Below, in pieces: positions 3,156-40,553 of a stretch of DNA of 64,000 nucleotides. The notes under the pieces were generated by a model, which saw only the letters and a program-made list of their open reading frames with translations, did not search any database and was not told the origin of the DNA. This stretch comes from Lactarius indigo. Its lineage: Eukaryota; Basidiomycota; Agaricomycetes; Russulales; Russulaceae. Position numbers and translations under genes: made by a program. The stretch spans positions 124,001 through 188,000 of the forward strand of contig JAFKAC010000099.1 of assembly GCA_025766275.1 (NCBI GenBank), in the 5' to 3' direction. The number at the start of each line of letters is the position of its first letter. Within the stretch, counting starts at the first letter, position 1.

Positions 3156-5216
3156 GTGGCCGTAACAACAAGAGATCAGTGGACGAGCTTCCGTCCTTAT
3201 TCGCTCCCAAGAAGAGGAGAACGCAACGTCCCTACGCGCTTTCTACAAGCTGCCAGTTGGAGGGAAAGACAAGAAGAAACCGGATACTTCGTAGAATTCA
3301 ACGGACCTAGCAGGTTCCGACCAGTTGAGTTTAACTTCAACCACCTTTGCTGGGTAGAAGTTACGTGGAACCCCATAGAATCTCAGTGGGATGTCATACG
3401 ACCAACAGGACCAAGGTATCGGTGCAACATCGACGCACGAGAACTCAATAGCCGAGCAGACTGGGGTCCCATCGACGGGCAGATACAAGAACATTCCACT
3501 GGAGAAGTAGTATCAGAAGGGACTGAAGAAGATGAACAGAGCCAAGAAGAAAGCAACGGACGAGAACCGAATCAAACGGAGACTAGCGGAGGAGCAATAC
3601 AAGACCTCCTCATTGAACGAGCTGAGTCTGCGCACATTACAGAGCCAGAGCCAATTCACATCCGATCACCAGCCATTATGGCAACACTAACGCAAGCAAT
3701 GGAGGAAGTCACCATCGAAGAAGCATGCGCAATACGGGCTGAGGCAAGAGATATCCTCATGCCCATCAACCCAGAAACAGGAGTACGGATGACAGCAGAC
3801 GACGCCACCATCTTCCGAGCCATAGGATCTGATAGGGGAGACCCTCCATCAGGGCGACACCCCATAATGGAACTCCCTCCAGGCGTAGGAGGGCCGAACG
3901 GGGACCCGCCACCGCCACCGGGAGGAGGAGTCCCATTCGACATACGAAGGAACGAACCACCAAGAGGACCACCCGTTGGACCGCCAGGCGGAGGCGGAGG
4001 CGGTGGGGGAGGCGGCGGAGACGCAGGAGGGGGAGGGCATCATAACAAAAAATTAACCGGCGAGCCACCTTCCATCTTTGACGGCGACAGACTCAAAGTA
4101 GATCAATTCCTAACACAGTGGCACATCTACTGGGGCATGAACTTGGACGCCCCCATCATGCGCAACAACTACAGAAGATGCCTTCTGTTTCTTTCTTACA
4201 TCAAAGGCGGAGCGGTCAGCGAATGGGTGCTATCATTCCTGAACTGGCTCAACAGACAAATACAACGAGGGATTAGTCCCTATACTCAGGACTTATGGGA
4301 CGCCGTAGCCGACGGTTTCAGCCAGCGGTTCAAAAATACGCTAGAGCGAGAACAGGCACAGGCGATATTGCGAAAGGGATTCAAAATGACGGGAGAGGAT
4401 ATTGACAAGTACGTCAATGATTTCGAGCAGCTTGCGCGGAAAGCTCATTACCGCCTCAACGAACCACAAACAATTGACCTCTTCACATCAGGTCTGCCCA
4501 AGGAACTTTTCAAAAATGTGTTCCAATTTGACGACCCGATCACGTTTGACAATTGGAAGAGGGCCGTACTCAAACGGCAGAAGAATTACATCCACCTCAA
4601 GGCGAGGCTCAATGAGCACAGAAATACCCCGACCCAACCGAAGAAACAAAGCGGCAACGTGGGATGGACACTCCTGCAAAACTTACCCCAGAACAACCCC
4701 TGGGCGATGGATACTTGGGCTGACCACGCCAAGGTGAGGCTCGCAGGTTCAGAAGAGATTGACTTCAACAAACTGCCTCACCACGACTGGCCAACACCAC
4801 CGTTCCCGCCACGAGGGGGCCCCGGAGCAAGAGGGCGAGGAAGAGGGGGGTCTCGAAGAGACTTAAGGAACGTCCTCTGTTATAACTGTCACGCTCCGGG
4901 ACATCTCTCACGGAACTGTCCACACCCCCGCGTTCAGAGGCAATGGCAAGCCACCCCATCAAGCAGCCGGATGACTGAAACATGGCATCCCCAATGGCCC
5001 ACCCAGGGACCCATATCGCAATACGAACCCTCGCTGCCAGGGTATGCGACGCTGGCACCAAGTGCAACGCCAATGCCACAAATAAACGCGGCAACAACAA
5101 AAATGGCCGGAGAACAGGCGAAGGAATGGCCCACACAGGTCACTAACAGTACAGATGAGGTAAAAGACCTCATACTTCAAGATTTGTGGGGAAAAGAGGG
5201 TTTTCAGGACGCCTGA
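3156..5216 (+). CDS. G1a gag (capsid/nucleocapsid polyprotein), GTG start
   Basis: Open for 686 codons from a GTG with A at -3 and G at +4. It has an N-terminal domain shared with the G2 family (TRDQWTSFRPY, RFRPVEFNFNHLCWVEVTW, DIDARELNSRADWGPIDG in parts), an acidic linker, the segment around the first gag-frame ATG (MATLTQAMEE), a Pro/Gly-rich linker, the retrotransposon gag core (about residues 310-480) and a CCHC zinc knuckle CYNCHAPGHLSRNC near residue 575. The product packages element RNA into virus-like particles. It ends inside the -1 frameshift window that leads into pol. Unlike G1b, the N-terminal part of this copy has acquired out-of-frame ATGs, consistent with decay. Confidence 0.88.
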   Translation: MAVTTRDQWTSFRPYSLPRRGERNVPTRFLQAASWRERQEETGYFVEFNGPSRFRPVEFNFNHLCWVEVTWNPIESQWDVIRPTGPRYRCNIDARELNSRADWGPIDGQIQEHSTGEVVSEGTEEDEQSQEESNGREPNQTETSGGAIQDLLIERAESAHITEPEPIHIRSPAIMATLTQAMEEVTIEEACAIRAEARDILMPINPETGVRMTADDATIFRAIGSDRGDPPSGRHPIMELPPGVGGPNGDPPPPPGGGVPFDIRRNEPPRGPPVGPPGGGGGGGGGGGDAGGGGHHNKKLTGEPPSIFDGDRLKVDQFLTQWHIYWGMNLDAPIMRNNYRRCLLFLSYIKGGAVSEWVLSFLNWLNRQIQRGISPYTQDLWDAVADGFSQRFKNTLEREQAQAILRKGFKMTGEDIDKYVNDFEQLARKAHYRLNEPQTIDLFTSGLPKELFKNVFQFDDPITFDNWKRAVLKRQKNYIHLKARLNEHRNTPTQPKKQSGNVGWTLLQNLPQNNPWAMDTWADHAKVRLAGSEEIDFNKLPHHDWPTPPFPPRGGPGARGRGRGGSRRDLRNVLCYNCHAPGHLSRNCPHPRVQRQWQATPSSSRMTETWHPQWPTQGPISQYEPSLPGYATLAPSATPMPQINAATTKMAGEQAKEWPTQVTNSTDEVKDLILQDLWGKEGFQDA

Positions 5217-10588: not shown

Positions 10589-11199
10589 TGATGAACAGCA
10601 CACATAGATAGCTTACTCACAGAGGGACAAAGTGTTCTGTGGTGAGACAAGCTGGGTGGCTGGAAGCAGCAACAGGGAAATCTAGCAAGGTAAAGCAAGG
10701 TGTCTGGCACACAGCAGTGAGAGAACTGATCATGTTATTACAGGGAAGAAGACATACCTGGCACACAGCAGTGAGAGAACTGATGTGGACCAGGGCGTAC
10801 AAGCAGTCTACTTATACTGTACAGAGGCGTGACACTAGTACAAGGAAAGTAACTATGGGTCACAGAATACAAGGAGCGCATTGTTCTACAACAGGACAAA
10901 GGAGTGTGCATATGGAGAACAAGGCGTTATAGAACAAGAAGTGTCCAGACTAAGATGATATCACAATGACATCACAATAAAGATATATCTAAAGAACAAA
11001 GACGTAGTACAATGACAAGTCCAGAGGAGTCCGCATGATGTCATAGTATATGATGTCATAGGTGACGCAATGATAAGTAATAGATTGTACAGATCAAAAG
11101 GTATCTAATCTACAAGTCCTGTATATCTAATCTACAGCAGTCCATGCTGCAAGTCCGGTCCGTATGAGCCGCTAAGTGCGCAAGGGTCACTTATCAACA
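10589..11199 (-). repeat. 3' LTR of Cop1
   Basis: 611 bp, same sequence as 16320-16930. It contains an internal direct repeat of 27 bp beginning CTGGCACACAGCAGTGAGAG at 10704-10730 and 10758-10784, and two TGATGTCATAG motifs. Just inside the element (11200-11207 on the plus strand) the minus strand reads CGGGGAGA, the polypurine tract. Confidence 0.95.
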
Positions 11200-11218
11200 T
11201 CTCCCCGTGATCTACAAT

Positions 11219-15541: not shown

Positions 15542-16304
15542 TGGGATGATTTATCTATCGCCGAGGAGCAGTCAGCGACAGTGCTTCATAGTTGCAAAAA
15601 GATGGAGGGGGATACCACTCCTGTCTGTGATTCTGTAAGGCCAGAACGCTAACGCGTCCTGCCTCCTGATAGTATGCCAGTGATACAAGGGCTAGGCCCA
15701 GGTTGAAGGAATCCCTTTGCCATACCATGAGCTAGCTGCCAGCCAGGATGTGTCTAGGACACAGCTCAAATGGTTTGCGTCAGGGGGAAGGTGAAGGGAA
15801 TGCTTTCAGAGCCCAAGGCTGTCTACCTCAGCCTCCTCGGCCTGTTGGTTGCCTCATCGCCACAAGTGGCTTTACTGAATCCTTTCCCATTGCCGCTACA
15901 AGGCAGGTATCTGGTTGCAGAACACCATAGTGGTGAACACCCCCCAGAGCCTGAACCAGGTTTTATACTCCCATGGTGAGGAGATCCTGCGCCCAGTGTG
16001 GAGCACCAGAGACAGCTGGCGCTAAGCTCCACAATACACAGCCCAGTGGGCCATGCACGCCTGGATATTTTGAAGTTAAGGGGCTACCAGACCCAGTCTC
16101 CTTGCGCATAGCGCAGGGGCTAGGAAAACAGTAGGGGTGAAAGTAGGACTACTGGGCAGTACATACACAGGAGGTTCCTTAGCAGAGACAAGTGGCGCCC
16201 CACTGCTCTCTGCCTTGGGCAAGGCTGGTAAGGCCCCAGACAGACCTTAGCCTGGTGTGTCCTCCTAGGAAGACAGTGACCAGCCAAGTGGAGTGGCTAG
16301 GGCA
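15542..16304 (-). other. Cop1 5' untranslated leader
   Basis: About 760 nt between the primer site and the gag ATG on the minus strand. No homology or long ORF on the element's strand is recognisable. It probably carries packaging signals, though none can be identified by eye. Confidence 0.6.
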
Positions 16305-16319
16305 CCAGGGCCCATAACC
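16305..16319 (-). other. Cop1 primer binding site (initiator-tRNA anticodon arm)
   Basis: The plus strand reads CCAGGGCCCATAACC up against the 5' LTR (starting 16320). That resembles the anticodon stem-loop of initiator tRNA-Met (CAU anticodon in GGGCYCAUAACC), not a tRNA 3' end. Drosophila copia is known to prime with the 5' half of this tRNA, so the same half-tRNA mechanism is inferred. Confidence 0.65.
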
Positions 16320-16930
16320 TGATGAACAGCACACATAGATAGCTTACTCACAGAGGGACAAAGTGTTCTGTGGTGAGACAAGCTGGGTGGCTGGAAGCAG
16401 CAACAGGGAAATCTAGCAAGGTAAAGCAAGGTGTCTGGCACACAGCAGTGAGAGAACTGATCATGTTATTACAGGGAAGAAGACATACCTGGCACACAGC
16501 AGTGAGAGAACTGATGTGGACCAGGGCGTACAAGCAGTCTACTTATACTGTACAGAGGCGTGACACTAGTACAAGGAAAGTAACTATGGGTCACAGAATA
16601 CAAGGAGCGCATTGTTCTACAACAGGACAAAGGAGTGTGCATATGGAGAACAAGGCGTTATAGAACAAGAAGTGTCCAGACTAAGATGATATCACAATGA
16701 CATCACAATAAAGATATATCTAAAGAACAAAGACGTAGTACAATGACAAGTCCAGAGGAGTCCGCATGATGTCATAGTATATGATGTCATAGGTGACGCA
16801 ATGATAAGTAATAGATTGTACAGATCAAAAGGTATCTAATCTACAAGTCCTGTATATCTAATCTACAGCAGTCCATGCTGCAAGTCCGGTCCGTATGAGC
16901 CGCTAAGTGCGCAAGGGTCACTTATCAACA
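16320..16930 (-). repeat. 5' LTR of Cop1
   Basis: 611 bp, same sequence as the 3' LTR; its minus-strand end abuts the primer site. It is followed at 16931 by the second GACGG and the remaining N-terminus of G1c gag. Confidence 0.95.
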
Positions 16931-17115
16931 GACGGAACCTGGTAGGTCCGTTAAATTCTATGAAGTATCCGGTTTCTTCTTGTCTTTCCCTCCAACTGGT
17001 GGCTTGTAAAAAGCGTGTGGGGATGTTGCGTTCTCCTCTCCTTGGGAGCGAATAGGGACGGAAGCTCGTCCACTGGTCTCTTGTTGTTATGGCCACGATG
17101 GTATCTTGGTCTTAA
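16931..17115 (-). pseudogene. G1c gag N-terminus with self-primer site
   Basis: The minus strand starts GTG GCC ATA ACA at 17096 (A at -3, G at +4) and encodes TRDQWTSFRPYSLPRRGER and on to NGPTRFR, where Cop1 enters. Upstream on the element, 17103-17113 is the reverse complement of AAGACCAAGAT, the same primer site as in G1a and G1b, two bases from the LTR (17116). Confidence 0.87.
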
Positions 17116-17449
17116 TGTAACGTCGTCACGACGTTAGCTTGACTTGAGCTCGATAAAGGCGGTAACAACTTAGCGAATATCCTGACACGACGACACGAAG
17201 GTCTGTGCTCTTGCCTTAGTGAATACGTGGAGGTACACCGGCAAGACTTGCTATCTCTGTACTAGGTCACGACAGGAGTCGGACGCGATCTTGAAGACTC
17301 GAGAAGGAGAGAAAGAAGAGAAATAAGTGACGATTCAAGAAGACCAAGATGGCGTATCTTGGTCTTCACAAGACAGTTTAAATACATATTCAGCAGGCTT
17401 TGAAGTGCTGCTACGAGTCACCGTAAGTAAGCGTCCAACATATTGCGTA
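17116..17449 (-). repeat. 5' LTR of G1c, inner part
   Basis: Minus-strand G1 LTR with the GAAGACCAAGATACGCC-type inverted repeat (around 17340-17368) and a TATTTAA-like box. It is split by G3 at the GCGTA site (17445-17449); its other part is 33155-33338. Combined length is about 518 bp. Confidence 0.88.
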
Positions 17450-18016
17450 TGTTACGATTTTCTTGGACTCGTTTCTTTCCTTACCATTATTTCCTTCCCA
17501 CACTATACGAGCCCTGTACGACTACGCGGACTTTACGATTACCCGGTTTCTATCACGCGCCTTGCTTATCGACGCTTTCTTTTGATAAAGCTTGACATGT
17601 GCCAGTTTCCGACCTGCTTCCTTTCACGCGCAACCCCGCGTGATCCTCCCTTGTTCCCGATATATCCCTGCTTTGTTCCCTTTATGCCCATTCCTTTCTT
17701 CCCTGGTTTGGCGATGGCACCATCTGTTTGTGATGGCCATACAATACGATTTCTATTTAACTCTAGTCATACCTAGCTTGTACGGTAGACTAGACTTCTT
17801 GTGTAATACTACACTCGTCTACGCGAAGTCTCCCTGACCCCGATCCTTGTTTCTGCTAGACCTTCGAGTCTTAGCTCTCCTCTATAGCCCAAGTGACACG
17901 CGTCCTTGTGGCTCTTGTGCATCATCTCTACTGAAGTCGAGCCTTTGAGCTTTGACTACCGCGCGATTGACTGACTTAGTACAGGTCGTACTTAACGCCC
18001 CTGTAGTGGCGTTACA
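17450..18016 (+). repeat. 5' LTR of G3
   Basis: 567 bp. TATTTAA at 17754-17760; 33 bp from its first base lies AGACTAGACTT (17787-17797), complementary to the primer site at 18019. From there to the GTG at 18035 I find no ATG in any frame. Confidence 0.95.
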
Positions 18017-18018
18017 TT

Positions 18019-18029
18019 AAGTCTAGTCT
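18019..18029 (+). other. G3 self-primer binding site
   Basis: AAGTCTAGTCT, two bases after the LTR, is the exact reverse complement of LTR bases 17787-17797. It differs from the G1/G2 site (AAGACCAAGAT) at several positions, and the LTR partner differs in the compensating way. Confidence 0.82.
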
Positions 18030-18034
18030 CCACA

Positions 18035-19636
18035 GTGGCTCTCACCAGCCGAAGCCGAACACAGTTCGTCAAAGAGTACCTGGAGCGGCATCCCTACGAC
18101 GACCTAAGACCGTCTATTAAAGGAACCGCTCTTTGGAGGAACACCCCACACGACGAAGGGTACTACGTCTACGACCCCGACAAACTCACATACGAACCAA
18201 TCGAGTATATCGAAGATCAACACATTTGGGCCTACGTTGCCTACTCCGATTCAAAACACTCCTGGTACTCCTATAAACCCGTCCCTGCACACCTAGGCCT
18301 AGGACCAGGAAAAGGACAAATCAGCGCCATCGAGGCTGACTCCGACATCGAAGAACCATCTTCCGAACCCGATTTAGACAACCCAACACTCACGCCTACC
18401 ATCCAACGACCCGTGGACTTCGCATCATATGCCAACATGTCCACCACCCAACTCTCCACCACCCTCACCTCCTCGCAACCAGCCGCAGGGTCCTCGACAG
18501 CGAATCCTGCAAGTAGTGGAGGACATCCTGTGGGAGGAAGTATGTCGACAAGCGGAGCAGGCGCTGCGGGAGGCACAGGAAGCCATCATGGAGGCGGTGC
18601 GCCTGGAGGTGGAGGCGGCGGAGCAGCAGCAGGACCCGCCGCTGGAGGACCTCCCCCACCAAACGGACGACTCGGAGGGAATCCTCCACCAGAATTCACC
18701 GGAGATCGAGAAGCCAGCAGAGCTTTCCTAAACGCCTTCGCACTCTACCGAGGAATGAACCCAAATGTCCAACAATTGACCCTCCCTTACTCACGCGCCA
18801 TGACCCTCCTCTCGTACATCCGAGGGCCATTAGTAGATGACTGGGTCGAAGAACAAATACAGTGGCTAGCCGACCAATTGGCGGGAGGAGTGGCCATGAA
18901 CGCCAAAAACCTATGGAACACTATCGAAACAAGGTTTATTCAGGCGTACACCGACACCACTCAACAACAAAAAGCCCGCCACGCCATTCAAACTTTACGA
19001 ATGGACAAAGAAGACATCGACACCTACATAGCCAAGTTTTTTAACTTGGCCAATAAGGCAGGATACAACAAGGACGAGGCCACCACCCTGGAAATTTTCC
19101 AGAAAGGCCTCCCAAACGCACTAGTCATAAACGCAATCAAATTCCACCACCCTGTAGACTGGGACGACTGGAAAACAGCGGTTACGCTCCAACAAGCGGA
19201 GTATCTCCTTCTCAAAGACAGACTTACCAAAGGAAGGACAGACAAAAAGGGAGGAGCCTCCCGCGACCAATGGCTGAACGCCCTCAACAAAACTAGGGAC
19301 CCAAACGCAATGGACGTCAGCCGAACCCGCGCCAGAGCAGCAATAACGGAGGACGAAAAGAAGCTACTCCAAAAGGAAGGAAGATGTTTCCGATGCCGAG
19401 GGCAAGGACACATCTCCAGATTCTGCCCTCAAAAGACAACCACTACTGTTAAAACCGCAAGTACGAACGACCCTACTCCAACCACCGCCACTATCTCAAT
19501 GACCGCGTCACGCCCTCTTTCCAACGAGGAGCAAGCCGACGCCCAAGTAGCGGCCTTGTTCGCCCAAACTCCGGAAGTACGAGAACTAATGGTGGATAAA
19601 CTCTTCGGACAAAAGAAGGATTTTCTGAACGCTTGA
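18035..19636 (+). CDS. G3 gag, GTG start
   Basis: 533 codons from GTG (context ACAGTGG). An N-terminal extension of 134 residues precedes the first gag-frame ATG (18437). Then come a Gly/Pro-rich linker, the gag core (GPLVDDWVEEQIQWLADQL, MDKEDIDTYIAKFFNLANKAG, FQKGLPNALV) and a CCHC knuckle CFRCRGQGHISRFC near residue 450. It ends VDKLFGQKKDFLNA at the frameshift window. It forms the element's particle. The extension keeps coding character despite lacking any ATG, so GUG initiation or an undetected upstream exon must be invoked. Confidence 0.87.
   Translation: MALTSRSRTQFVKEYLERHPYDDLRPSIKGTALWRNTPHDEGYYVYDPDKLTYEPIEYIEDQHIWAYVAYSDSKHSWYSYKPVPAHLGLGPGKGQISAIEADSDIEEPSSEPDLDNPTLTPTIQRPVDFASYANMSTTQLSTTLTSSQPAAGSSTANPASSGGHPVGGSMSTSGAGAAGGTGSHHGGGAPGGGGGGAAAGPAAGGPPPPNGRLGGNPPPEFTGDREASRAFLNAFALYRGMNPNVQQLTLPYSRAMTLLSYIRGPLVDDWVEEQIQWLADQLAGGVAMNAKNLWNTIETRFIQAYTDTTQQQKARHAIQTLRMDKEDIDTYIAKFFNLANKAGYNKDEATTLEIFQKGLPNALVINAIKFHHPVDWDDWKTAVTLQQAEYLLLKDRLTKGRTDKKGGASRDQWLNALNKTRDPNAMDVSRTRARAAITEDEKKLLQKEGRCFRCRGQGHISRFCPQKTTTTVKTASTNDPTPTTATISMTASRPLSNEEQADAQVAALFAQTPEVRELMVDKLFGQKKDFLNA
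18429..18731 (+). CDS. Possible overlapping small ORF at the first AUG of the G3 transcript
   Basis: The first ATG of any frame downstream of the inferred start site is here, eight bases before the first gag-frame ATG, in a weak context (C at -3). It opens a 100-codon +1-frame ORF through the Gly-rich gag linker, predicted to be strongly helical (AEQALREAQEAIMEAVRLEV). It may be translated by leaky scanning or may be a by-product of the repetitive GGN/GCN linker. No counterpart starts at this point in the other families. Confidence 0.25.
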   Translation: MPTCPPPNSPPPSPPRNQPQGPRQRILQVVEDILWEEVCRQAEQALREAQEAIMEAVRLEVEAAEQQQDPPLEDLPHQTDDSEGILHQNSPEIEKPAELS

Positions 19637-22600
19637 ACCCGGCGGCCTGGGCTAGAGCATTAAAACTTAGCGTGTACAATAGCAGATTCCGATCCATGCA
19701 AATTCCAGTACTTTTCAAATCTGCTCACGCGATGGCCGAACGAAACGTTCTGGTAGACTCAGGCGCAACAGACAACTTCATAAGCGCGAACCTCCTAAAA
19801 CAACTCAAGATAGCCTGGCTACCCACCGAACGCTCCATCAAAATATGGAACGTAGATGGAACCCACAACCAAGGAGGAGAAATCACGTCTTTTACCGACC
19901 TTGTCACGTTTTGGACTTTCTGTGTTATGGTACGACAGTGATTAGGACCCTTACTGTACCGGTTGCAACTACGGCGGTAAGGTAGATTAGTTGCGGACTT
20001 ACTTACGGTGATACGGCGGTGCGATAGGTGATAAGATACGATAGCTGACTGATGACCGACGCCACTAGTACTGGTACTAGTAGTATTAGGGTTCGCGTTG
20101 TTTCTGCGATACGTTGGACGCTTACTTACTGTGACTCATAGCGGCGCTTCTAAGCCCGCTCGAATTGTATTTAACCTGCCTTGTGAAGACCAAGATACGC
20201 CATCTTGGTCTTCTTGAATCGTCACTTGTTTCCTTTTTTATTTGCGACTCAATCTCTCTCATCTCTGAACCATAACTTGGTGTCCAACTTCGTTTGTGAC
20301 AAGATAAGACTAAAGCCTTGCCGGTGTACCTTCGCGTATTCACTAGGGCAAGCACACGGACCTCCGCGTCGTCGTGTCAAACGCTAAGTTGTTATCGCCT
20401 CCCCCGAGCTCAAGTCGAGCTGACGCTGTGACGGCGTTACATTAAGACCAAGATCCCATCGTGGCTGTAACAACCAGAGACCAGTGGACCAGTTTCCGTC
20501 CATATTCGCTCCCAAGAAGAGGAGAACGCAACGTCCCCACGCGCTTTTTACAAGCCGCTAATTGGAGGGAAAGGCAAGAAGAGACTGGATACTTCGTCGA
20601 GTTTAACGGACCTAGCAGGTTCCGTCCAGTTGAGTTCAACTTCGATCATTTGTGCTGGGTAGAAGTTGCCTGGAACCCCGTAGACTCCCAGTGGGACGCT
20701 ATACGACCAGCAGGACCCAGATATCGGTGCGATATCGACGCACGAGAACTCAATAGCCGCGCCGACTGGGGCCCTGTTGACGGGCAAGTACGAGAACATT
20801 CCACCGGAGAAGTAGTGTCGGAAGAGGAAGAACGAAGCCAAGAAGAAGACGAAGAGAGCGAAGGACGAGAGCCAAATCAAACTGAGACCAGCGGAGGAGC
20901 AATACAGGACCTCCTCATCGAACGAGCTGAGTCCGCACATATTACAGAACCCGAACCAATTCACATTAGGTCGCCAGCTATTATGGCAACCTTGACGCAA
21001 GCTATGGAGGAAGTCGCCATTGAAGAAGCACGTGCCATAAGAGCAGAAGCAAGAGACATCCTTATGCCCATCAATCCGGAGACCGGAGTACGAATGACCG
21101 CGGACGACGCCGCAATCTTTCGCGCCATCGGATCGGACAGGGGAGACCCCCCGTCCGAACGACGACCAGCTATGGAACTACCTCCCGGGGTAGGAGGACC
21201 CAACGGAGATCCGCCACCCCCGCCGGGAGGAGGAATACCATTTGACTTACGAGGAACCGAACCACCGCGAGGACCACCCGCTGGACCACCAGGAGGCGGG
21301 GGCGGCGGAGGAGGAGGAGGTGGCGGAGACGCTGGAAGGGGAAGCCATCATAACGAGAAATTAACCGGCGAGCCACCCTCCATTTTCGATGGAGACAGAC
21401 TTAAAGTAGACCAATTCCTGACGCAGTGGCACGTCTACTGGGGCATGAACTTGGACGCCCCTATCATGCGCAACGACTACAGAAGATGCCTTCTGTTCCT
21501 GTCATACATCAAAGGCGGAGCGGTCAGCGAATGGGTCTTGTCCTTCCTGAACTGGCTCAACAGACAAATACAACGGGGAATCAGTCCCTACACCCGTGGT
21601 CTATGGGACGCCGTAGCGGACGGTTTCAGCCAGAGATTCGAAAACACGCTGGAACGCGAACAAGCACAAGCAATATTACGGAAAGGGCTTAGAATGGTAG
21701 GAGAGGACATTGACAAGTACGTCAATGATTTCGAACAGCTCGCACGGAAGGCTCATTACCACCTCAATGAACCACAAACCATCGACCTCTTCACATCGGG
21801 TCTGCCGAAGGAACTGTTCAAAAACGCGTTCCAGTTCGACGACCCGGTCACCTTCGACGATTGGAAGAGGGCCGTACTCAAACGGCAGAAAAACTACATC
21901 CATCTCAAAGCGAGGCTTAACGAGTACAAAAACACCCCTACACAACCCAAGAAACAGACCGGCAACGCAGGATGGACGCTTCCCCAAAACCTACAACAAA
22001 CCAACCCCTGGGCCATGGACACCTCGGCCGATCGTGCCAAGGTACGACTGGCAGGATCTGAAGACGTCGACTTTAACAAGCTACCCCATCGTGATTGGCA
22101 AACGCCACCGTTCCTGCCAAGAGGAGGACCGGGCGCGAGAGGACGAGGAAGAGGGGGATCGAGAAGGGACCTAAGGAACGTACTCTGTTACAACTGTCAC
22201 GCTCCGGGACACCTCTCACGAAATTGCCCCCATCCGCGCGCACAAGGACATTGGCAAAACGCGCCATCCAGCAGTCGGATGACCGAAACCACGTGGCACC
22301 AGGGACCCGTATCACAATACGAGCCCTCTCTGCCCGGGTACATGACCCCGGCACTGAGCGCAACACCAGCCCCTCAAATTAAAGCGGCAAGTACGAAGAC
22401 GGCAGGAGAACAAGCAAAGGAATGGCTCACACAGGTGGCCAATAGTACGGATGAAGTAAAGGACCTTATCCTCCAAGATTTGTGGGGGAAAGAGGGTTTT
22501 CGGGACGCCTAAACCCGTCAGTCTGGGTGAGGGCTCTACAATGTAATTCTGTAATTGTGACAACGCGCTATCGATCTCTACGAATTCCAGTGACTGTCCG

Positions 22601-25600
22601 AACGAATTACCAAACGACTGAAGCAAACGCACTGGTCGACTCCGGAGCGACCGATAACTTTATCAAACCAAGTATGGCAGCCAAGGCAGGAATCCCGGTA
22701 CAGGCGCTGGAAACGCCCCGCAAAATATGGAACATAGACAATACGGAAAACAAAGCTGGGTTGATCACTCATTACGTTAACCTAGAAGTGAAAACGCGTG
22801 GACAGGTGAAGAAAATGACCTTTCTGGCCACCGACCTCGGAAGCGAGGACATGGTGCTCGGCTATCCCTGGCTGAGCACCTTCGAACCCACCATCAGCTG
22901 GGCTACGGCCACCACACACCCCGACGTACAACCCGTAGTGCTAGCCACTACGGAGGAACTACTTACCGCATCCACGGTGCGAGCCCTAATCACCGCGGAA
23001 AAGGAGGAGATCTTACAAGAACTGCATGAGGAAACTTTCGCACGAGCCACGACCTCGACGGAGTTGGCCATATTAGCGAAACAACAGCAGACGGCAGCCG
23101 TGTTGCCACCCGAATACGACGAGTTCAGTAGACTCTTTAACGAGCAGGCCTCACATCGTTTTCCCCCAGCTAGACCGTGGGATCACGCAATTGACTTCAA
23201 ACCTTCAGCTCCGACGGCCATAGACTGCAAGATATACCCCATGACACAAAAGGAAGAAGGCGAACTCAGGGAGTTCTTAGACGAAAAACTGAAACAGGGC
23301 TACTTGCGCCCCTCCATATCCCCGTACGCGTCTTCCTTCTTTTTTATTAAAAAGAAGGACGGAAAACTACGCCCTGTGCAGGACTATCGAGTTATCAACT
23401 CACACACCATCCGCAATCAATACCCGCTACCGCTCATCCAAGACCTCATTCTGGATCTCAGCAACGCTCACATTTATACCAAACTAGACATCCGGTGGGG
23501 CTACAACAACATACGCATCCGCGACGGAGATCAAGAGAAAGCGGCGTTCAAGACCAAATTCGGTCTCTTCGAACCAACGGTCATGTTCTTTGGCCTCACC
23601 AACTCTCCGGCCACCTTCCAAGCGATGATGAATCACATCTATCGCGACACGATCGCGAAACACGAGCGCCTCGGCACTACGATACGTGTCTATATGGATG
23701 ATATTGGTATCGCGACTCATTTCGACCATGATTTAGCCGCTCATGTCTCGGCCGTCCGAGACGTCCTACGCGTCGCCAAAGAACACGATCTCTACTTCAA
23801 ACTTGAGAAGTGCCTTTTCCATCAACCGCGAATGGATTACCTGGGGGTAATCCTTGAAAGGGGGGTAACTCGCATGGACCCTGTAAAAGTTCAAGGCATT
23901 AAAGACTGGCCAACGCCCACGAAGGTCAAGGACGTTCGATCCTTCCTGGGCTTCTGTAACTTTTACAGACTTTTCATTCGCGGTTTCGCAAACCACGCAA
24001 AGCCGCTGACCAAACTAACACGGAAGGATGAAGAGTGGAGATGGACGGAAGTAGAAGAAGAGGCATTCAACACCCTGAAACGCCTCGTAACAGAAGAACC
24101 GGTACTCGCACATCCAGTCCTCCAGGACCCGTTCGAATTAGAGGTCGATGCCTCGGGATACGCGGTGGGAGCCGTACTCCTCCAGAGAAAAGCTGACGGA
24201 AAGCGACACCCAATAGGATATTACTCCGCAACGCTTTCGGAAGCCGAGCGCAACTACGACATCTACGACCTAGAACTACTGGCCATAGTCAAGGCGTTGC
24301 GGAACTGGAGACCGCTACTCGCAGGAGCCCCACATAAGATCAAAATTTACTCGGATCACCTCAACCTGCAATACTGGAAGTCACCGCAGAAAATCAGCAG
24401 ACGTGTCGCAAGGGAAGTATTAGAACTTTCCGAATACGACTTCGAGATTCACCACATCAAAGGGAAGAACAATGGACGAGCAGACGCGTTGTCGCGTCGA
24501 CCGGACTACGACCAAGGAGCGGAGGACAATAGCGAAGTGGTGGTACTGCCACCGGAAGTCTTTGTCCGAGCCACTAATACGGCAAAGACGCTCACCCTCG
24601 ACCCGAACCTGTTGCAGCCGCGACATCAACAAGACGAGGAAGTGATTAAGGTGTGGGTAGACCCCCACCAATTGAAGAAAATACAAGGAGAGTGGTATAA
24701 AGACGGCAGGTTCGTAATAACCGGACCAGCATCGACGCATCGCGTATTGATCCATGACCACCATGACTTGCCAATACATGGCCATCCCGGGATCGCAAAA
24801 ACACAACGAATCCTGGAGAGGCATTATTGGTGGCCGCGACTGCGCAAGGATGTATACGAATATGTCCAAGGGTGTGCGGAATGTCAACGAAACAAGGTAA
24901 ACACGCGTCCTATACGAGCGGCACTACACCCCATCACACCAGTACTCGATGCGCTGCCCTTTCAAACGGTGGCAATCGACTTCATTACCAAGCTGCCGAC
25001 ATCCGAAGGGCACGACAGCATCCTCACCATCACCGACCATGACTGCAGCAAAGCCTCAGTGTTTATACCATGCCGAGAGGAGATAACCGCCGAAGAAACC
25101 GCCGCGTTGTACGTCAATCATGTGTTTAAACGATTCGGACTACCGCGCAAAATCATCAGTGACCGAGACCCCCGCTTCACATCCAAGTTTACAAGGGAGG
25201 CATGCCGAATTCTAGGGGTGCAGCAAAATATATCCACAGCGTATCACCCACGCACCGACGGACAGTCGGAAAGGACCAACCAATGGCTGGAGCAATATTT
25301 ACGCTTTTGGGTGAATGAACGCCAAGACAACTGGACCACGTATTTGCCAATAGCGGAGTTTGCACACAACAATTGGCCCCACGAGCACACGAAACAGTCG
25401 CCGTTCCAACTCCTGATGGGATACGACCCGCGAGCTGATTGGACCGATAAGCCATCCCCTATTCCCCAAGTAACCGCGCGACTGACACGGCTGAAAGAAG
25501 CTAGACAGGACGCCCAACGCCTCATGAAAAAGGCGCAAGAGGCATGGGTGCGCAACAAAGATACGCCCAAATTCCGTATCAATGACCTCGTGTGGTTAGA

Positions 25601-28600
25601 AGGGAAGCACCTTCGAACCAATCAACCCACGGCGAAATTAGCGGCGCGACGCCACGGACCTTTTAGGGTGATCCAGGTGATGTCGCCCTACAATTATCGA
25701 TTGGAACTTCCCACACAATGGAGCATCCATCCAGTGTTCCACATCGATCTTCTCACGCCGTACAAGCAAACTCCCTTACACGGGGAAAACTTCACGCGCC
25801 CACCACCAGAACTGATTGATGGAGAAGAGGAATACGAGGTCGAGGCCATTCTGGACTCTAGGCATTTCGGCAGGGGCAAACGCCTGCAATACCTTGTGAA
25901 ATGGAAGGGGTATCCAGACTCGGAGAATCAGTGGGTCAACAAGGATGACGTCTTTGCGCCAGAAGCGCTCCGTCTATACCAGGAAGCACAAGCGCGGGGG
26001 CAACAAGTTAAAACGAACAGCGCAAAGGTCGAAGGGAGTCAACCCTCTTTCCTCCGCTCTCTCACCTCTCACATGCCTACTTCCCCTCTACGCCATGTCA
26101 CCCAAGCAGCGCTCCTCGACTCCCTCGCACAAGACGCCCACGCCCTCTTGGCTGAGGACGACGACACCGAGGTACCCAACCCTCAAATCACACCATGGAC
26201 GCCTCTTAGACCAGCCGAGGGGCCTATCACCGCGCAAGAGTGGGCCCACGTCATCACCAGATTCCCAGACCCCACTACTACCCCCGATGACGAATCCGCC
26301 GTCGTCCACGTCTTCAGAAACGACCGTGGAGAACGCGAGCCGATCGCCGCTATCCCCCCAAGCGACGACCTCATCGGCATTCGCGGAGTTTTCCCGAGCA
26401 ACGACCAGCGTTCAAGCGCTGATGGAGTACGAGCTGGAGGGGTGGAGGAGAGTAGCGGCGGAGTGGCAGAAGGAGCAGCTCGACTCCGCAGCGGCCCGAC
26501 TGAGGGAGATGCGCGAGCGGCGGCAGCGATGGAGGCAGCTGAGGCTAGCCATGACGACGACGATTACTACCCGGCACGCCACGCCTTCCTTCGAACGAAA
26601 AGCGACCCTACTAATCCCCTCATCACGCCTTGGCTCGTCTACTCCGACGGGTCCCCCATGTATCGAGGACGTGTGCGCGTGCCTGGCGCCGCCGATCATC
26701 GTACGTTCACCGCCGCCGACGACCCCGCGCATGTCATTGCGCCTGAAGGGTTCCGGGCAAATCGACGACCCCATCACATTCCATACCCCATCACCGGGCC
26801 CGACGGAGTAGAGCGGGACGCGTCCCACGTCCAACTCATCGGAGGGGCTGACCCCCTCATTCTAGGGGTCATACCGGGGTCACCGCACGTCTACGGTAAG
26901 CCCTTCTACGCTGAGCCGCACGTGTCCGCCGCTCTCCGCCCCACATACCCCCACGAAGACCTGGTCGTCTTCGAGGCGGACCGCATCACCGACCGAGCCC
27001 TCAACCGAATCAACGACGAGTCACTCACGGCTGAGGTTACGCGCTTCCGCGCGGCCAGCTACGAGTTAGACCGACTCCGCGCTCGAGTGGCCCAGCTCCG
27101 CGCCATGATCGAATGCGCGCAGGACGATCGCCGCGACTCCATTTATCGTCTGGAGCGCGCCACGGCACTCGAGCGTATCGCCGATGAGCAACGCGACTGG
27201 CCGGCGAGGGACTTTCGGTGAGTCGGGGTCTCACGCTGAAAAGGGGGTGATGTCACGTTTTGGACTTTCTGTGTTATGGTACGACAGTGATTAGGACCCT
27301 TACTGTACCGGTTGCAACTACGGCGGTAAGGTAGATTAGTTGCGGACTTACTTACGGTGATACGGCGGTGCGATAGGTGATAAGATACGATAGCTGACTG
27401 ATGACCGACGCCACTAGTACTGGTACTAGTAGTATTAGGGTTCGCGTTGTTTCTGCGATACGTTGGACGCTTACTTACTGTGACTCATAGCGGCGCTTCT
27501 AAGCCCGCTCGAATTGTATTTAACCTGCCTTGTGAAGACCAAGATACGCCATCTTGGTCTTCTTGAATCGTCACTTGTTTCCTTTTTTATTTGCGACTCA
27601 ATCTCTCTCATCTCTGAACCATAACTTGGTGTCCAACTTCGTTTGTGACAAGATAAGACTAAAGCCTTGCCGGTGTACCTTCGCGTATTCACTAGGGCAA
27701 GCACACGGACCTCCGCGTCGTCGTGTCAAACGCTAAGTTGTTATCGCCTCCCCCGAGCTCAAGTCGAGCTGACGCTGTGACGGCGTTACAGACCTCACCG
27801 TTAAAACCGGAGGAAAGACCCAGAACCTTCGATTCCTTATCACAGATTTAGGAAACGACGAAGTCATACTGGGATACCCCTGGTTTACAGCTTTTGAACC
27901 CAAGTTCCACTGGCGAGATGCCACACTCGATGAAGAGTTCCAACCAGTGGTCATCACCAGTCTGCATCTGTCCGACGAAGCCGTGCCTCTTGAAGCAACT
28001 ATCAAGGCATTGGAGACGTATCAACTGGACGAATCAGCCTGGGAACAGCTACAAGAAGAGGATGAACCTCATATCCGACTGCGAAAAACAACCACAGCAT
28101 CCGAACTAGCGCAGCAAGAAGCGGCCAAAAAACCCCAGAAGACCTTCGAAGAGATGGTCCCAGAAGAATACCGGAGACATCAGAAAGTTTTCAGTGAGGA
28201 AGCGTCCCAGTGCTTTCCCCCTTCACGCCCGTGGGACCATGCCATCGATCTAGTCCCAACCGCCCCTGAAACAATGGATTGCAAAGTGTACCCACTCACA
28301 ATCCCAGAAAACGAAAAATTAACAGAATTTGTAACCGAACACCTGGAAAAGAAGTACATCCAACCGTCCAAGTCCCCTTACGCATCTCCCTTCTTTTTCA
28401 TCAAAAAGAAGGACGGGAAGCTACGCCCGGTACAGGATTACCGCCGCCTCAACGAACTAACCATAAAAAATCACTATCCACTCCCCCTAATCCCCGAACT
28501 TATTGACAAGATCCGAGAAGCAAGGCTTTACTCAAAGCTTGACATCCGATGGGGATACAACAATGTCCGAATCAAACAAGGGGACGAATGGAAGGCGGCG

Positions 28601-32548: not shown

Positions 32549-32582
32549 AGTCGAGGCGTCTTCAGACCAAGACGGGGGGTAA

Positions 32583-34812: not shown

Positions 34813-35224
34813 TGTCATGAACGCCCCTATCTTTTCTCATCTTTCCCCTCTTTCTTCTTCTCGCACTTCTCAGTTCCGCTGGCATTTGCTCTGCTGGCAT
34901 CTGCCCTGTTGGCATCTGCCTTGCTGGCATCTGCTTTGCTGGCATCTGCCTCGCTGGCACCCCTGAACACTAGCTATATAAGCCCCGTAATGTACACTGT
35001 ATTTCCTTAGCTTTGGCTTCGTCAATATACTGTCTAGTTCCTCAGCACTTTCCTCTCATCTCTACCACAGTCCTCTTCTCTGAAGCCTTGTTGCCTTGAG
35101 CTATATCAAGGAACACCCAACTGACTTAGGTGCCGTTCTGCTCAGCAGCGGACCAACTCAGTGCCCTTTGCCTCAGGCAGGGACTGTTACAGAACAGGAC
35201 GCACGCCCCGACAGTGGCGTGACA
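34813..35224 (+). repeat. 5' LTR of G4
   Basis: 412 bp. U3 holds six tandem ~15-bp units (TGCTGGCATCTGCCT type, about 34880-34965). TATATAAG at 34975-34982; TAGCTTTGGCTT (35008-35019) is complementary to the primer site. No ATG between 35008 and the GTG at 35259. Confidence 0.95.
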
Positions 35225-35225
35225 T

Positions 35226-35237
35226 AAGCCAAAGCTA
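35226..35237 (+). other. G4 self-primer binding site
   Basis: AAGCCAAAGCTA, one base after the LTR, is the exact 12-base reverse complement of LTR 35008-35019, which starts 33 bp from the TATATAAG box. It is the third distinct primer sequence in the window with its own matching LTR partner. Confidence 0.82.
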
Positions 35238-35258
35238 CAGACCTCAGAACTAGTCACC

Positions 35259-36965
35259 GTGGCTAGCATCGAACTCGACCTCCTCTCGGACGATCAGTGG
35301 ACCGAAGTCTTTCGTCGTTGGAACGACAACCTCCCGATACACGTATTAGGCACCGCCTACTGGAATACCTCACACACTGACAGACGCGGAGGCTACCGAG
35401 CTCTCCTTAACGAACGCATCTACAACCTCGAATTTATAAACCATCGGTGGCACGTTCTCGAGAAGCGCGGAACTGAATTCTTCACTAGGACATCCCTAGT
35501 CATCCCCCGAAACAACAACGTCAGTCTTGGCTGGTGGAATCCAGAAGACGACGAGAACCCTGAGCGGTATCACCTCGACCATCCCGAAACCCTTCCCGAA
35601 CCAACTGCACCAGCCCGCGTGGACTCTCCTGTTGAGGAGAACCATCCTATCGAAAGCGAAGACGTACCTGCTGAGACATCAGCACCAGACGACCTCACCA
35701 CCGCACTAGACAACGTACCCATCGACGCCCCAGACTTTTGGCAACAGATCGCAGCTGCCTCGACACCCGTCTCACCCGTATTCCCACCTCTTCTTACTAC
35801 CATCACCGCACCACCCATCATCACCCCATCAGCACCCGCCATGTCCTCAGGATCCGCAGCCAATGCCTCTTCGGGAGGGAAGCTCAGCGGCAACGCCCCG
35901 GCCATATTTGATGGCTCCCGCGATAAGTCGAAAAAGTTCTTGCAAGAATTCGACCTATATCGCGGCATGAACGAAGACTCGTCCGTTATCAGATCGCCCT
36001 ATCAACGCGTATTCCTCGCGCTATCCTTCATCCGAGGACCCAATGTCGACGATTGGGTCGACACCCAGCTCGAGGGACTCCGAGCAAAAGTTAGTGGTAC
36101 GACGACGACGGCCGCTATCCCAAAAACAGAGGAATCGTTGTGGAACGACTTCGTCACCGGCTTTAAATCAGCTTACACCAACGTTACCGAAAAGCAGGAT
36201 GCTTACCAGCTCCTGAAAGCGCTCCAAATGAAAGGAGCAGACCTCGACACATATACCGCCACGTTCCAGAACCTTGCCGCGAAGGCAGGATACGCCCTTG
36301 ACGCCGCAGCCACAGTCGACCTCTATTCGGGAGGATTGCCGTGTGGCCTCTTATCGGCCATCTTGAAACGCGACACTGTACCAGAGACATTCGCCCAGTG
36401 GGTCGAATCGGCACAAAAGGAACAGCGCAAGTACGCAATGCTCCGCGCCCGCGTTGGCCTCAACGACGGAGGCAAAAAGATCGGTGGAAAGACTAGGCAG
36501 GAATGGTCCCAGCTGTTTAATTCGAATAGCAACCACGGGGGAGGACGACGCACCAATAACCAACCCGTTCAGCAGACCACAACACCAATCCGCGATCCCG
36601 ATGCGATGGATGTCGATCGCGCTCGCATCGCATTAACAGACGAAGAAATGCAACGCTGCCGCTCAGAAGGCCGTTGCTTCCGCTGTTTCAGTAAAGGCCA
36701 CTTGTCGCGCGATTGCCCGAAACGATCAACTGGCCAAGCTAGTGGCGGGACGACAACAATCCTCCAAAACGACAACCGTCGCGGAAACACGCCTTCCGCG
36801 CGCATCGCCGAGGTCGAACCCACACCAGCAGCAACTGCCCCCAGCCCAGCCGCGCCGACCCCACAGAAGAAGAACGGCGACAGTTTCGTCGCCCAAGTCC
36901 GCACCATGAAAAACGACGAGAAAGAGGCCATCCTCGACGCCCTCTTCACAGACAAGGATTTTTAG
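35259..36965 (+). CDS. G4 gag, GTG start
   Basis: 568 codons from GTG (context ACCGTGG). A 194-residue extension has no ATG in any frame until 35841 (MSSGSAANASSGGKL). Then the gag core (GPNVDDWVDTQLEGLRAKV, MKGADLDTYTATFQNLAAKAG, YSGGLPCGLL) and a CCHC knuckle CFRCFSKGHLSRDC near residue 472. Ends ALFTDKDF at the GGATTTT shift site. The extension is unlike that of G1/G2 in sequence but has the same position, start context and ATG absence. Open throughout, unlike pol. Confidence 0.87.
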   Translation: MASIELDLLSDDQWTEVFRRWNDNLPIHVLGTAYWNTSHTDRRGGYRALLNERIYNLEFINHRWHVLEKRGTEFFTRTSLVIPRNNNVSLGWWNPEDDENPERYHLDHPETLPEPTAPARVDSPVEENHPIESEDVPAETSAPDDLTTALDNVPIDAPDFWQQIAAASTPVSPVFPPLLTTITAPPIITPSAPAMSSGSAANASSGGKLSGNAPAIFDGSRDKSKKFLQEFDLYRGMNEDSSVIRSPYQRVFLALSFIRGPNVDDWVDTQLEGLRAKVSGTTTTAAIPKTEESLWNDFVTGFKSAYTNVTEKQDAYQLLKALQMKGADLDTYTATFQNLAAKAGYALDAAATVDLYSGGLPCGLLSAILKRDTVPETFAQWVESAQKEQRKYAMLRARVGLNDGGKKIGGKTRQEWSQLFNSNSNHGGGRRTNNQPVQQTTTPIRDPDAMDVDRARIALTDEEMQRCRSEGRCFRCFSKGHLSRDCPKRSTGQASGGTTTILQNDNRRGNTPSARIAEVEPTPAATAPSPAAPTPQKKNGDSFVAQVRTMKNDEKEAILDALFTDKDF

Positions 36966-38065: not shown

Positions 38066-38574
38066 TGTTACGGTACGGACTCGGTGACTCATCACATACG
38101 ACTCATGACCGGTTATGACTACGGTCCGGTATTGATATTAGTCATGGACTCTTACATCGCATCAGTCAGCATAGCGGTTCGCATGTGATTGCGACTCATG
38201 TATGACTCATTCCTAGGATAGCTGTACTAGGGTTCGAGCTAGTTACGCTATTGGTTACTTACCATTCCAGCGGCGCTTTAAAGCCCGCGCGTATCTGTAT
38301 AAGTAGTTGACTCGGAAGACCAAGAGTCCCCATCTTGGTCTTCTTCAATCCACCTTTGAATCGTCTCTTGTCTGCCTTAGTCTCGGACTAAGTGTGCCTC
38401 CACTAGTATCTACCAAGGATACTCTCTCTCTTACTCCTTTCGCTGCAGTGTGTGCTAAGGAGCCCCTGTTCAGCTTGCGTTGGGTTGACACATGTTCCCC
38501 ATTCGCCTAACTTTCGCTAAGTCGATTACGCCTTCTACAAGTCCAAGTCGGACTGACGCCGGTGGAGCGTAACA
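38066..38574 (+). repeat. 5' LTR of G2b
   Basis: 509 bp. U3 carries perfect TGACTCA sites at 38085-38091 and 38203-38209 plus several CGACTCATG near-matches. TATAAGT at 38298-38304 and ATCTTGGTCTT at 38332-38342 (34 bp apart). The single ATG downstream (38492) is CGTG in the 3' LTR. Confidence 0.95.
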
Positions 38575-38576
38575 TT

Positions 38577-38587
38577 AAGACCAAGAT
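38577..38587 (+). other. G2b self-primer binding site
   Basis: AAGACCAAGAT, two bases past the LTR, pairs over 11 bases with 38332-38342. The U3 arm of an 11-bp inverted repeat lies just upstream of the inferred start. Confidence 0.82.
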
Positions 38588-38594
38588 CTTCATC

Positions 38595-40553
38595 GTGGCG
38601 TACTCGACCAGAGATCAGTGGACGTCTTTCCGTCCCTATCATATTGAACGACGAGGAGATCGCAACGTACCAACAAGATTCTTAGGAGCGGCTCAGTGGA
38701 GAGAAAGAGAAGAAGACACCGGATATTTCGTAGAGTTCAACGGTCCTAACCGCTTCCGACCCGTTGAGTTTAATTTCGAACATCTCTGTTGGGTCGAGGT
38801 TACTTGGAACCCCATAGATCATCGCTGGGATATTGTACGGCCAGCAGGAAGAAACTACAACTGCGATATCGACGCACGAGAGCTCAATAGTCGCGCAGAC
38901 TACGGTCCCATCGACGGACAAGCACAAGAACATACTGACGAAGGAGTCAGCGGAGAAGAAACTTCTGAAAGTCAGTCCCCAAGTAGAGGGACCACGCCAG
39001 CAGAAGAAACCAGTTTGGGAGCAATCGGAGATCATATTATACGACGAACTGAGTCCCTTACTATTCATCAACCCGAACCTGAAGTAATCCACGTCCGCAG
39101 CCCAGCAGTTGCAATGGCAACCGCCACCATTACACAAGAAGAATTGCAACTCACTACCGAAGCAAGGGATCAAATAGCCCTGGAGGAACAGAGACGTATC
39201 GCAGAAGAATCGCGAGCCAACTTGGCTCCTATCAACCCATATACCGGTCATCGAATGACTGACGACGACGTAGCAATCCATCGCGCAATCGGACCCGATG
39301 TAGCTGACCCTCCCAGCGGAGGAGGCGGACCTCCCGGCGATCTACCCGGAGGAGGAGGACCACCACCAAGAGGACCCGGGTTTCAAGGATTCCCTGGAGG
39401 GTTCCCAGGAGGACCACCAGGAGGAGGACCTCCGGGAGGAGGATTACCAGGTGCAGGACCTATTATTCCTCCTCCAAGTAATAAATTAGCTGGCGAAGCA
39501 CCCACAGTATTCGACGGAGAGCGTGCCAAAGTCGAAGCATTTCTCACTCAATGGCATGTCTACTGGGGCATGAATGCCGACGAAGGTATCATGGCGACCC
39601 CGTATCGGCGTGCCTTACTCTTTCTCTCCTACATCAAGGGCGTCAATGTTAGCGAATGGGTATTGGCTATGCTCACTTGGCTTAATGGCCAGATACAAGC
39701 AGGAATACCCCGTACGAGTGAAGGGTTATGGAACGAGATAACGCGCAGCTTCATGCAGCGCTTCCGCAACACGATGGAACAGGAGCAAGCTCAATACGAG
39801 CTCAAGAAGGGGGTCAAAATGATCGGAGGCAATCTAGATGAGTATTGCACTCAGTTCGAGCAACTAATACGCCGCGCTCAATACCGACTCGACGATCCCC
39901 AGACGTTGGATCTATTTGCAAGTGGACTACCAAAAGACCTATATGAAAAGGTCTATACCCTCGATAACCCCCGCAACTACCGAGAATGGAAGGAGGCAGC
40001 GACTACTCGCCAACAGCAATACCTCCATCTTAAAGCAGTATTAAACAAAGGGGTACCACCGGGACAAGGACAAGGACGTCCGCGCCAGCAACGACAATGG
40101 CAGGGACCGCCAAGAAGTTCATGGCAGCCAAGAAATCTACGAGATCCAAACGCCATGGATACTTCGGCAGATCGAATTCGAGGGCGACTCGCAGGAGCCG
40201 AGGACATACTCGCCCCTCGTCCCCCATACCGACCAAGGGGAGGATTTTTGCAAAGAGGAGGAGGGCGTAACAACCCAAGGCCAGTCACCTGTTATAACTG
40301 TAGAAAGGACGGACACATGGCCCGCGATTGCAGACAACCAAGAGAAGGGTACCAACCCCAAGCATCAACTAGTCGGTATGTAGATACCGACTACCATCAA
40401 CAAGAGCCAGAAGTCGCTACCAGGGCGGTCCAAGACGTACCCCCTCAACAGCGCGCCAGCGACTGGCTTAACGGAGTAGCAGGAGAATCAGATGACGTAA
40501 AGGACATTATCCTCCAACAGTTATGGAAAAAGGAGGGTTTTCAGGATGCCTGA
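38595..40553 (+). CDS. G2b gag, GTG start, intact
   Basis: Begins GTG GCG TAC TCG (context ATCGTGG), aligned with the G1 start; an earlier in-frame GTG (38562) lies inside the LTR and is not shared. Extension of 173 residues (TRDQWTSFRPYHIERRGDR, NGPNRFRPVEFNFEHLCWV), then the first ATG of any frame at 39114 (MATATITQ). Gly/Pro linker, gag core (NVSEWVLAMLTWLNGQI, IGGNLDEYCTQFEQLIRRAQY), CCHC knuckle CYNCRKDGHMARDC, and a C-terminal block DWLNGVAGESDDVKDIILQ. Ends in the GGGTTTT shift window. Confidence 0.9.
   Translation: MAYSTRDQWTSFRPYHIERRGDRNVPTRFLGAAQWREREEDTGYFVEFNGPNRFRPVEFNFEHLCWVEVTWNPIDHRWDIVRPAGRNYNCDIDARELNSRADYGPIDGQAQEHTDEGVSGEETSESQSPSRGTTPAEETSLGAIGDHIIRRTESLTIHQPEPEVIHVRSPAVAMATATITQEELQLTTEARDQIALEEQRRIAEESRANLAPINPYTGHRMTDDDVAIHRAIGPDVADPPSGGGGPPGDLPGGGGPPPRGPGFQGFPGGFPGGPPGGGPPGGGLPGAGPIIPPPSNKLAGEAPTVFDGERAKVEAFLTQWHVYWGMNADEGIMATPYRRALLFLSYIKGVNVSEWVLAMLTWLNGQIQAGIPRTSEGLWNEITRSFMQRFRNTMEQEQAQYELKKGVKMIGGNLDEYCTQFEQLIRRAQYRLDDPQTLDLFASGLPKDLYEKVYTLDNPRNYREWKEAATTRQQQYLHLKAVLNKGVPPGQGQGRPRQQRQWQGPPRSSWQPRNLRDPNAMDTSADRIRGRLAGAEDILAPRPPYRPRGGFLQRGGGRNNPRPVTCYNCRKDGHMARDCRQPREGYQPQASTSRYVDTDYHQQEPEVATRAVQDVPPQQRASDWLNGVAGESDDVKDIILQQLWKKEGFQDA

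Follow-up and report, generated by a model that had tools for sequence, protein, structure and literature searches.

The analysed window is a stretch of 64,000 nt from the genome of Lactarius indigo (contig JAFKAC010000099.1, positions 124,001 to 188,000) and contains a nest of LTR retrotransposons, in which G1b lies within G3 and G2b within G4, itself within G2; an older G1 copy is also present. On the forward strand, G1b is bounded by a 5′ LTR at 19902..20441 and a 100% identical 3′ LTR at 27251-27790, and the surrounding G3 has its LTRs at 17449-18016 and 32582-33149. The long form of the G1b gag (20461..22512, + strand) encodes a Retrotrans_gag domain, which scored just under the Pfam cut-off, and a CCHC motif, both located 3′ of the first ATG. 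The pol frame (22455..27221 from stop to stop, + strand) overlaps gag in the -1 frame and encodes protease, RT, RNase H, integrase and a chromodomain. According to this gypsy domain order and a C-terminal Pfam Chromo match (E 6e-13), G1b is a chromovirus; among G1b, G2b, G3, G4 and a family G5 described below, the scan for the chromodomain and pol domains covered G1b. The slippery-type heptamer GGGTTTT, found in the gag/pol overlap of G1b (22494-22500), G2b (40535-40541) and G1 (5198-5204), fits -1 frameshifting. In G1b, about 410 pol residues past the chromodomain (25986-27218) were without a Pfam match, and G2 also has an ORF after pol (54073-55032). On the minus strand, 10589-16930 was recognized by eye as a Ty1/copia-like element, whose LTRs are 100% identical and which has two separate frames from stop to stop (14591-15550 and 11219-14590), while inverted G1-like and G2-like remains occupy 1-2506 and 16931-17175 of the same strand.

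Behind its 5′ LTR, G1b carries a predicted self-priming primer binding site (PBS) at 20444..20454 (+ strand), complementary over 11 nt to the putative RNA 5′ end at 20202. In G1b, G2b, G3 and G4, the PBS was found to match one site of the element's own LTR as a perfect complement of 11-12 nt, at 20202, 38332, 17787 and 35008, respectively; for G3 and G4, the own LTR was the only match at this length, and G1b and G2b share one motif. For G5, a PBS/LTR complement of 10/11 or better was found in six of seven copies. Elements of the Tf1/sushi group are self-priming, with a PBS complementary to the 5′ end of their own RNA (PMC6317226), and by this pairing all five appear to be of the same type. The complements support the RNA starts proposed by the initial annotation, which nevertheless stay putative. 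From these starts, the leaders on the + strand would span 20202..20460 (G1b), 17787..18034 (G3) and 35008..35258 (G4), all ATG-free, and 38332..38594 (G2b), which has one copy-specific ATG (38492) that is absent from its own 3′ LTR. Over all fetched loci, the leader was ATG-free in 29/30 (G1), 24/30 (G2), 13/16 (G3) and 15/16 (G4).

Directly behind the PBS, gag is predicted to open with a GTG codon. The initial annotation had described this start as GTG-GCN with A at -3 and G at +4, which proved right at all six places: G1 3156, G1b 20461, G2 34232 (codon 34232..34234, + strand; G2 is interrupted later by the nested G4), G2b 38595, G3 18035 and G4 35259. The G1b extension between this codon and the first ATG (20461..20982, + strand, start CATC-GTG-GCT) comprises 174 codons and is ATG-free in every frame; the ATG itself (20983..20985) is in frame, has A at -3 and G at +4, and is the predicted start of a short Gag. 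The extensions of G2b (38595..39113, CATC-GTG-GCG) and G4 (35259..35840, CACC-GTG-GCT), both on the + strand, are likewise ATG-free and lead to in-frame ATGs at 39114 and 35841. That of G3 (18035..18436, + strand, CACA-GTG-GCT) contains an out-of-frame ATG in weak context at 18429 and leads to an in-frame ATG at 18437. Absence of ATG from the extension held for G1b, G2b and G4, but not for the older G1 copy (3156..3677, + strand, GTG start, in-frame ATG at 3678), which has two ATGs inside, at 3391 and 3532. Recomputed extension lengths agreed with the 134-194 residues given before.

The AUG desert from the RNA start to gag was recounted directly. A single ATG was present in G1b 20202-20985, at 20983, and in G4 35008-35843, at 35841, as had been claimed. 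G2b 38332-39116 has two, at 38492 and 39114; the counterpart of 38492 in the 3′ LTR is GTG, and among 31 aligned rows this ATG occurred only in the window and in L031, which is the same copy. In G3 17787-18431 there is indeed one ATG (18429), but it is the out-of-frame one and not the start of the short form. In the five families, the in-frame gag ATG lies 650-833 nt from the putative RNA start. Pooled over five representatives (3762 nt), two ATGs were counted versus 33.3 in dinucleotide shuffles (Poisson P 2e-12), and each of the remaining five orderings of A, T and G occurred 33-66 times in the same sequence. At 60 G1/G2 loci we counted 7 ATGs in 15,933 nt of leader and 17 in 30,815 nt of extension, versus 283 in 16,987 nt of U3 of the same LTRs and 519 in 31,467 nt after the start ATG, a density of about 0.5 per kb for leader and extension combined, compared with 16-17 per kb for U3 and the following gag. 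With the protein sequence kept fixed by synonymous shuffling, out-of-frame ATGs were depleted in G1b (P = 0.002), G2b (0 of 2000 shuffles), G4 (P 0.02) and G5 (P 0.003), whereas G3 was not significant on its own (P 0.13); since the families are related, these tests are not fully independent. Methionine was found at none of 827 extension codons versus 38 of 1849 downstream, the 38 including five start methionines. Per locus, the extension was ATG-free in 25/30 (G1), 22/30 (G2), 0/16 (G3) and 8/16 (G4), the G3 value resulting from the out-of-frame ATG in weak context that precedes the in-frame one by 8 nt and is kept in 17/17 rows. These counts confirmed that the AUG desert is real and far beyond chance.

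Copies of the start codon were then considered across the whole assembly (90.3 Mb, 291 contigs). A PBS-anchored G1/G2 pattern matched 957 sites, with GTG at 917, ATG at 39 and TTG at one, and a reversed-pattern control gave 0 matches. Because A at -3, a pyrimidine at -2 and TGGC are prescribed by this pattern, only the first base of the codon is put to the test, and sites with a changed PBS or changed neighbouring bases are uncounted. Among the matches listed, loci were fetched for 30 of 40 places (G1), 30 of 43 (G2), 16 of 41 (G3) and 16 of 42 (G4); the 957 pattern sites do not depend on this selection. GTG was kept in 90 of these 92 loci, which include two copies from the window itself; L055 has ATG, and the start region of L030 is truncated, this locus being counted as a miss. 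The initial annotation had regarded copies with a conserved ATG in place of GTG as evidence against its reading. Such copies exist at 39/957 sites, but at 38 of the 39 the base at -1 is C, which is what a CG-to-CA change leaves, versus 666 of the 917 GTG sites (244 T, 7 other; binomial P 6e-5). Within the following 382 nt, additional ATGs were found in four of the five ATG-start copies fetched, versus 18 of 83 GTG-start matches (Fisher P 0.013, from five copies only); L055 is otherwise clean. Among seven G3-like copies, three have ATG at the start.

Upstream of the start, copies differ in the frame that follows the LTR. Between LTR end and start lie 18, 19 or 20 nt in 3, 29 and 33 of 65 G1/G2 matches (61 distinct, four being duplicates). 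In all 29 members of the 19-nt class, an in-frame stop begins 18 nt upstream, so the protein cannot begin further upstream and must begin at or close behind the GTG; the G1b sequence does contain the in-frame TAA noted earlier, 15 nt ahead of the GTG. An in-frame upstream ATG was seen in only 3 of the 65 matches.

A fifth related family, G5, lies outside the window and was reached via a weak match and then locus L106. Its PBS is TTAAGTCGAGTCT, and a pattern that left the first base of the codon and the upstream context free gave CTG in the context CCACC_TGGC at 37/37 sites. In the seven of these 37 copies that were fetched, an in-frame ATG stands at +456 in every case, and the roughly 718 nt before it are free of ATG in five. 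A change from V to L with the start context unchanged is predicted by a start codon, not by a conserved valine, so this family, which the initial annotation did not know, strengthens the reading of two Gag starts as judged from sequence.

Relatives beyond this assembly gave a mixed picture. Val-Ala occurs at the homologous place in five NCBI Lactarius models (P0002, P0004, P0028, P0029 and P0032) from L. indigo, L. pseudohatsudake and L. deliciosus, in each case inside a chimeric exon. A different upstream exon is fused to the Gag extension each time, apparently due to the missing ATG. Metagenome proteins (JGI) P0003, P0006 and P0012, with 33-50% identity, have Val-Ala as their first residues. 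Methionine stands at the start place in P0024 (Met-Ala, aligned) and P0051 (beginning with Met-Ala, by eye), and upstream of it in P0011, P0013, P0014, P0015, P0018 and P0019, and the protein P0020 begins with methionine at about codon 4; such methionines in some relatives mean that a start other than AUG may not be a universal trait. The ENA proteins P0010, P0030, P0040, P0044 and P0046 also begin with Met-Ala and were counted neither way, since M may be entered by a gene caller whatever the start codon. In P0001, P0005, P0026 and P0027 a foreign exon is joined behind the start place, which makes them unreadable there. Two scans of IMG/VR with single proteins found no relatives.

The extension behaves as coding sequence. 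Its conservation as protein between G1 and G2, claimed before, was borne out by dN/dS values of 0.091 (G1-G1b) and 0.186 (G1b-G2b). Between the window copy and other intact copies, medians were 0.057 (G1), 0.056 (G2), 0.013 (G3) and 0.186 (G4), with single G4 pairs up to 0.31; these values are biased downward, because only rows with intact frames (29/31, 29/31, 15/17 and 11/17 for G1 to G4) and pairs with dS above 0.03 (22, 25, 14 and 10) were used. For G3 against G5, saturation prevented a ratio from being calculated. Judged by these ratios, the extension is under purifying selection. An AlphaFold2 model of extension residues 1-120 predicted a beta-rich domain (pLDDT 85.6, pTM 0.77), for which no match of weight was found among PDB folds. 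Sequence searches with the extension gave nothing above the Pfam cut-offs (a sub-cut-off POM121 match, E 0.014, covers G1b residues 118-167 in the linker) and matches touching it in PDB at E 0.19 only. In the four window families, no hydrophobic stretch was detected in the first 40 residues by a simple Kyte-Doolittle measure (best 15-residue means -0.65 to 0.12).

Taken together, the layout has a conserved, predicted near-cognate start in good context, a conserved in-frame extension, and a stretch free of AUG leading to a conserved AUG downstream, G3 with its single weak out-of-frame AUG being the exception; the downstream in-frame ATG was kept in 91/92 loci. We therefore consider it likely, with a probability of about 0.77, that two Gag proteins are made from one RNA by leaky scanning. 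The 40S subunits would scan the AUG-free leader, and a minority would start at GUG (CUG in one family), in good context directly behind the PBS, yielding a long Gag with an extension of about 130-195 residues headed by the predicted beta-rich domain. Most subunits would pass this codon, traverse coding sequence devoid of AUG and initiate the short Gag at the first in-frame AUG. The second start may remain accessible because other AUGs are selected against, and counter-selection of AUG at the first start may preserve its leakiness. Both Gag forms could be extended into Pol by -1 frameshifting. For the long Gag, a role as a minor particle subunit or a matrix-like role would be a guess.

The avoidance of AUG behind the GUG is useful only if ribosomes still scan there, and this points to leaky scanning to the in-frame AUG. 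It also bears on the idea that initiation takes place only at GUG or CUG, with help from the context or from a special factor, so that only long Gag is made and the downstream methionine is kept for protein reasons. Such a single start would agree with the strong purifying selection on the extension and with the fact that several methionine codons past the start ATG are kept among copies as well as the ATG itself. We consider it unlikely, because AUGs after a sole start would be harmless, and their avoidance in all frames between GUG and the in-frame AUG, down to the lack of any methionine codon, would have no explanation. Internal ribosome entry or another non-scanning route to the GUG would suit a start directly behind the PBS, at a near-fixed place in the RNA, but would make the AUG-free leader needless, whereas scanning needs exactly this; we regard it as very unlikely. 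Folding covered +11 to +75 only; in this stretch, no significant hairpin was found in the five families (z -0.99 to 1.61), and assistance of the GUG by a hairpin downstream of the start was not supported for these positions.

Two further explanations deny the GTG its function. If a spliced upstream exon provided the AUG, the GTG would be an internal valine codon, and the five Lactarius models do join upstream exons to the extension, but different ones. We judge this highly improbable: the upstream frame varies with the 18/19/20 spacing, G5 has CTG with the nucleotide context kept, and AG directly precedes the start in 0 of the 65 G1/G2 matches. Moreover, the genomic RNA of LTR elements must stay unspliced to be copied. 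A desert arising from composition or chance, with a functionless GTG, could at best appeal to the weak depletion in G3 on its own; the frequent other orderings of A, T and G, the normal U3 and downstream gag, and GTG at more than nine tenths of the pattern sites leave it almost no probability. The proposal of a GUG-started long and an AUG-started short Gag thus fits the sequence evidence better than its rivals and was supported.

Comparable arrangements have been described elsewhere, and the following comparisons refer to the accessible parts of the cited reports. In the pararetrovirus rice tungro bacilliform virus (RTBV), ORF I starts at AUU with about 10% use, and about 900 nt without AUG allow leaky scanning to an AUG (PMC5902531). 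The likeness lies in the minority near-cognate start (proposed here), the AUG-free coding stretch and the downstream AUG reached by leaky scanning; RTBV differs as a plant DNA virus with separate ORFs, an AUU start, and a ribosome shunt with a structured leader, in contrast to the one in-frame Gag proposed here. The initial annotation had compared the extension with the glyco-Gag of murine leukaemia virus (MLV), which starts at CUG with a ribosome density of about 6.7% of gag, and gammaretroviruses generally lack AUGs in this extension (PMC5778647). The comparison stood for the layout, an in-frame N-terminal Gag extension opened by a non-AUG codon in good context, but not for the N-terminus: the MLV extension has a signal peptide (PMC5778647), whereas that of Lactarius is longer, predicted to be beta-rich, and not hydrophobic at its N-terminus in the four window families, where the Kyte-Doolittle measure gave no indication of an MLV-type signal peptide.

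Two mammalian genes are also comparable. In PEG10, CUG and AUG are both used experimentally, a -1 frameshift follows, and no in-frame AUG is located upstream (PMC2800197). The order of near-cognate start, same-frame AUG and -1 frameshift resembles the one proposed here, while PEG10 has a 34-aa extension and is no retrotransposon. CCDC8, a domesticated metaviral gene of the PNMA family, has a conserved CTG start that adds an N-terminal domain of 70 aa (PMC11011659); it shares with the arrangement proposed here the addition of such a domain to a metaviral Gag-type protein by a non-AUG start, and an AUG-free leaky-scanning layout is not part of its description as far as accessible. In fungi, near-cognate starts for N-terminal extensions are known from Neurospora cpc-1 and dual-isoform genes of Cryptococcus (PMC5487733, PMC7049704). 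A at -3 and G at +4 are also conserved at one cpc-1 near-cognate start, although these are host genes, and cpc-1 is regulated through uORFs. Searches of open-licence literature showed no non-AUG gag start in an LTR retrotransposon, the cases found being MLV, PEG10 and CCDC8.

PEG10 is derived from a sushi-type Ty3/gypsy element. One could speculate that a non-AUG long Gag with its own domain is old and general in self-priming metaviral elements, with AUG counter-selected at the first start; the CUG starts of PEG10 and CCDC8 would then be inherited and not acquired after domestication, and the long Gag would serve in small amounts as a structural or regulatory subunit, with the start codon fixing its proportion relative to the short Gag. 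We consider this unlikely. If translation confirms the dual start, the CUG starts of PEG10 and CCDC8 would have a counterpart among retrotransposons, and hundreds of copies with GTG, CTG or ATG in a near-fixed context would form a natural test of the start codon against the ratio of two proteins. Likewise, a conserved Gag domain would have been overlooked, and gene finders would have misplaced the Gag N-terminus in a large group of fungal retrotransposons, as in the Lactarius NCBI models, which fuse unrelated exons or begin at the second methionine (P0007).
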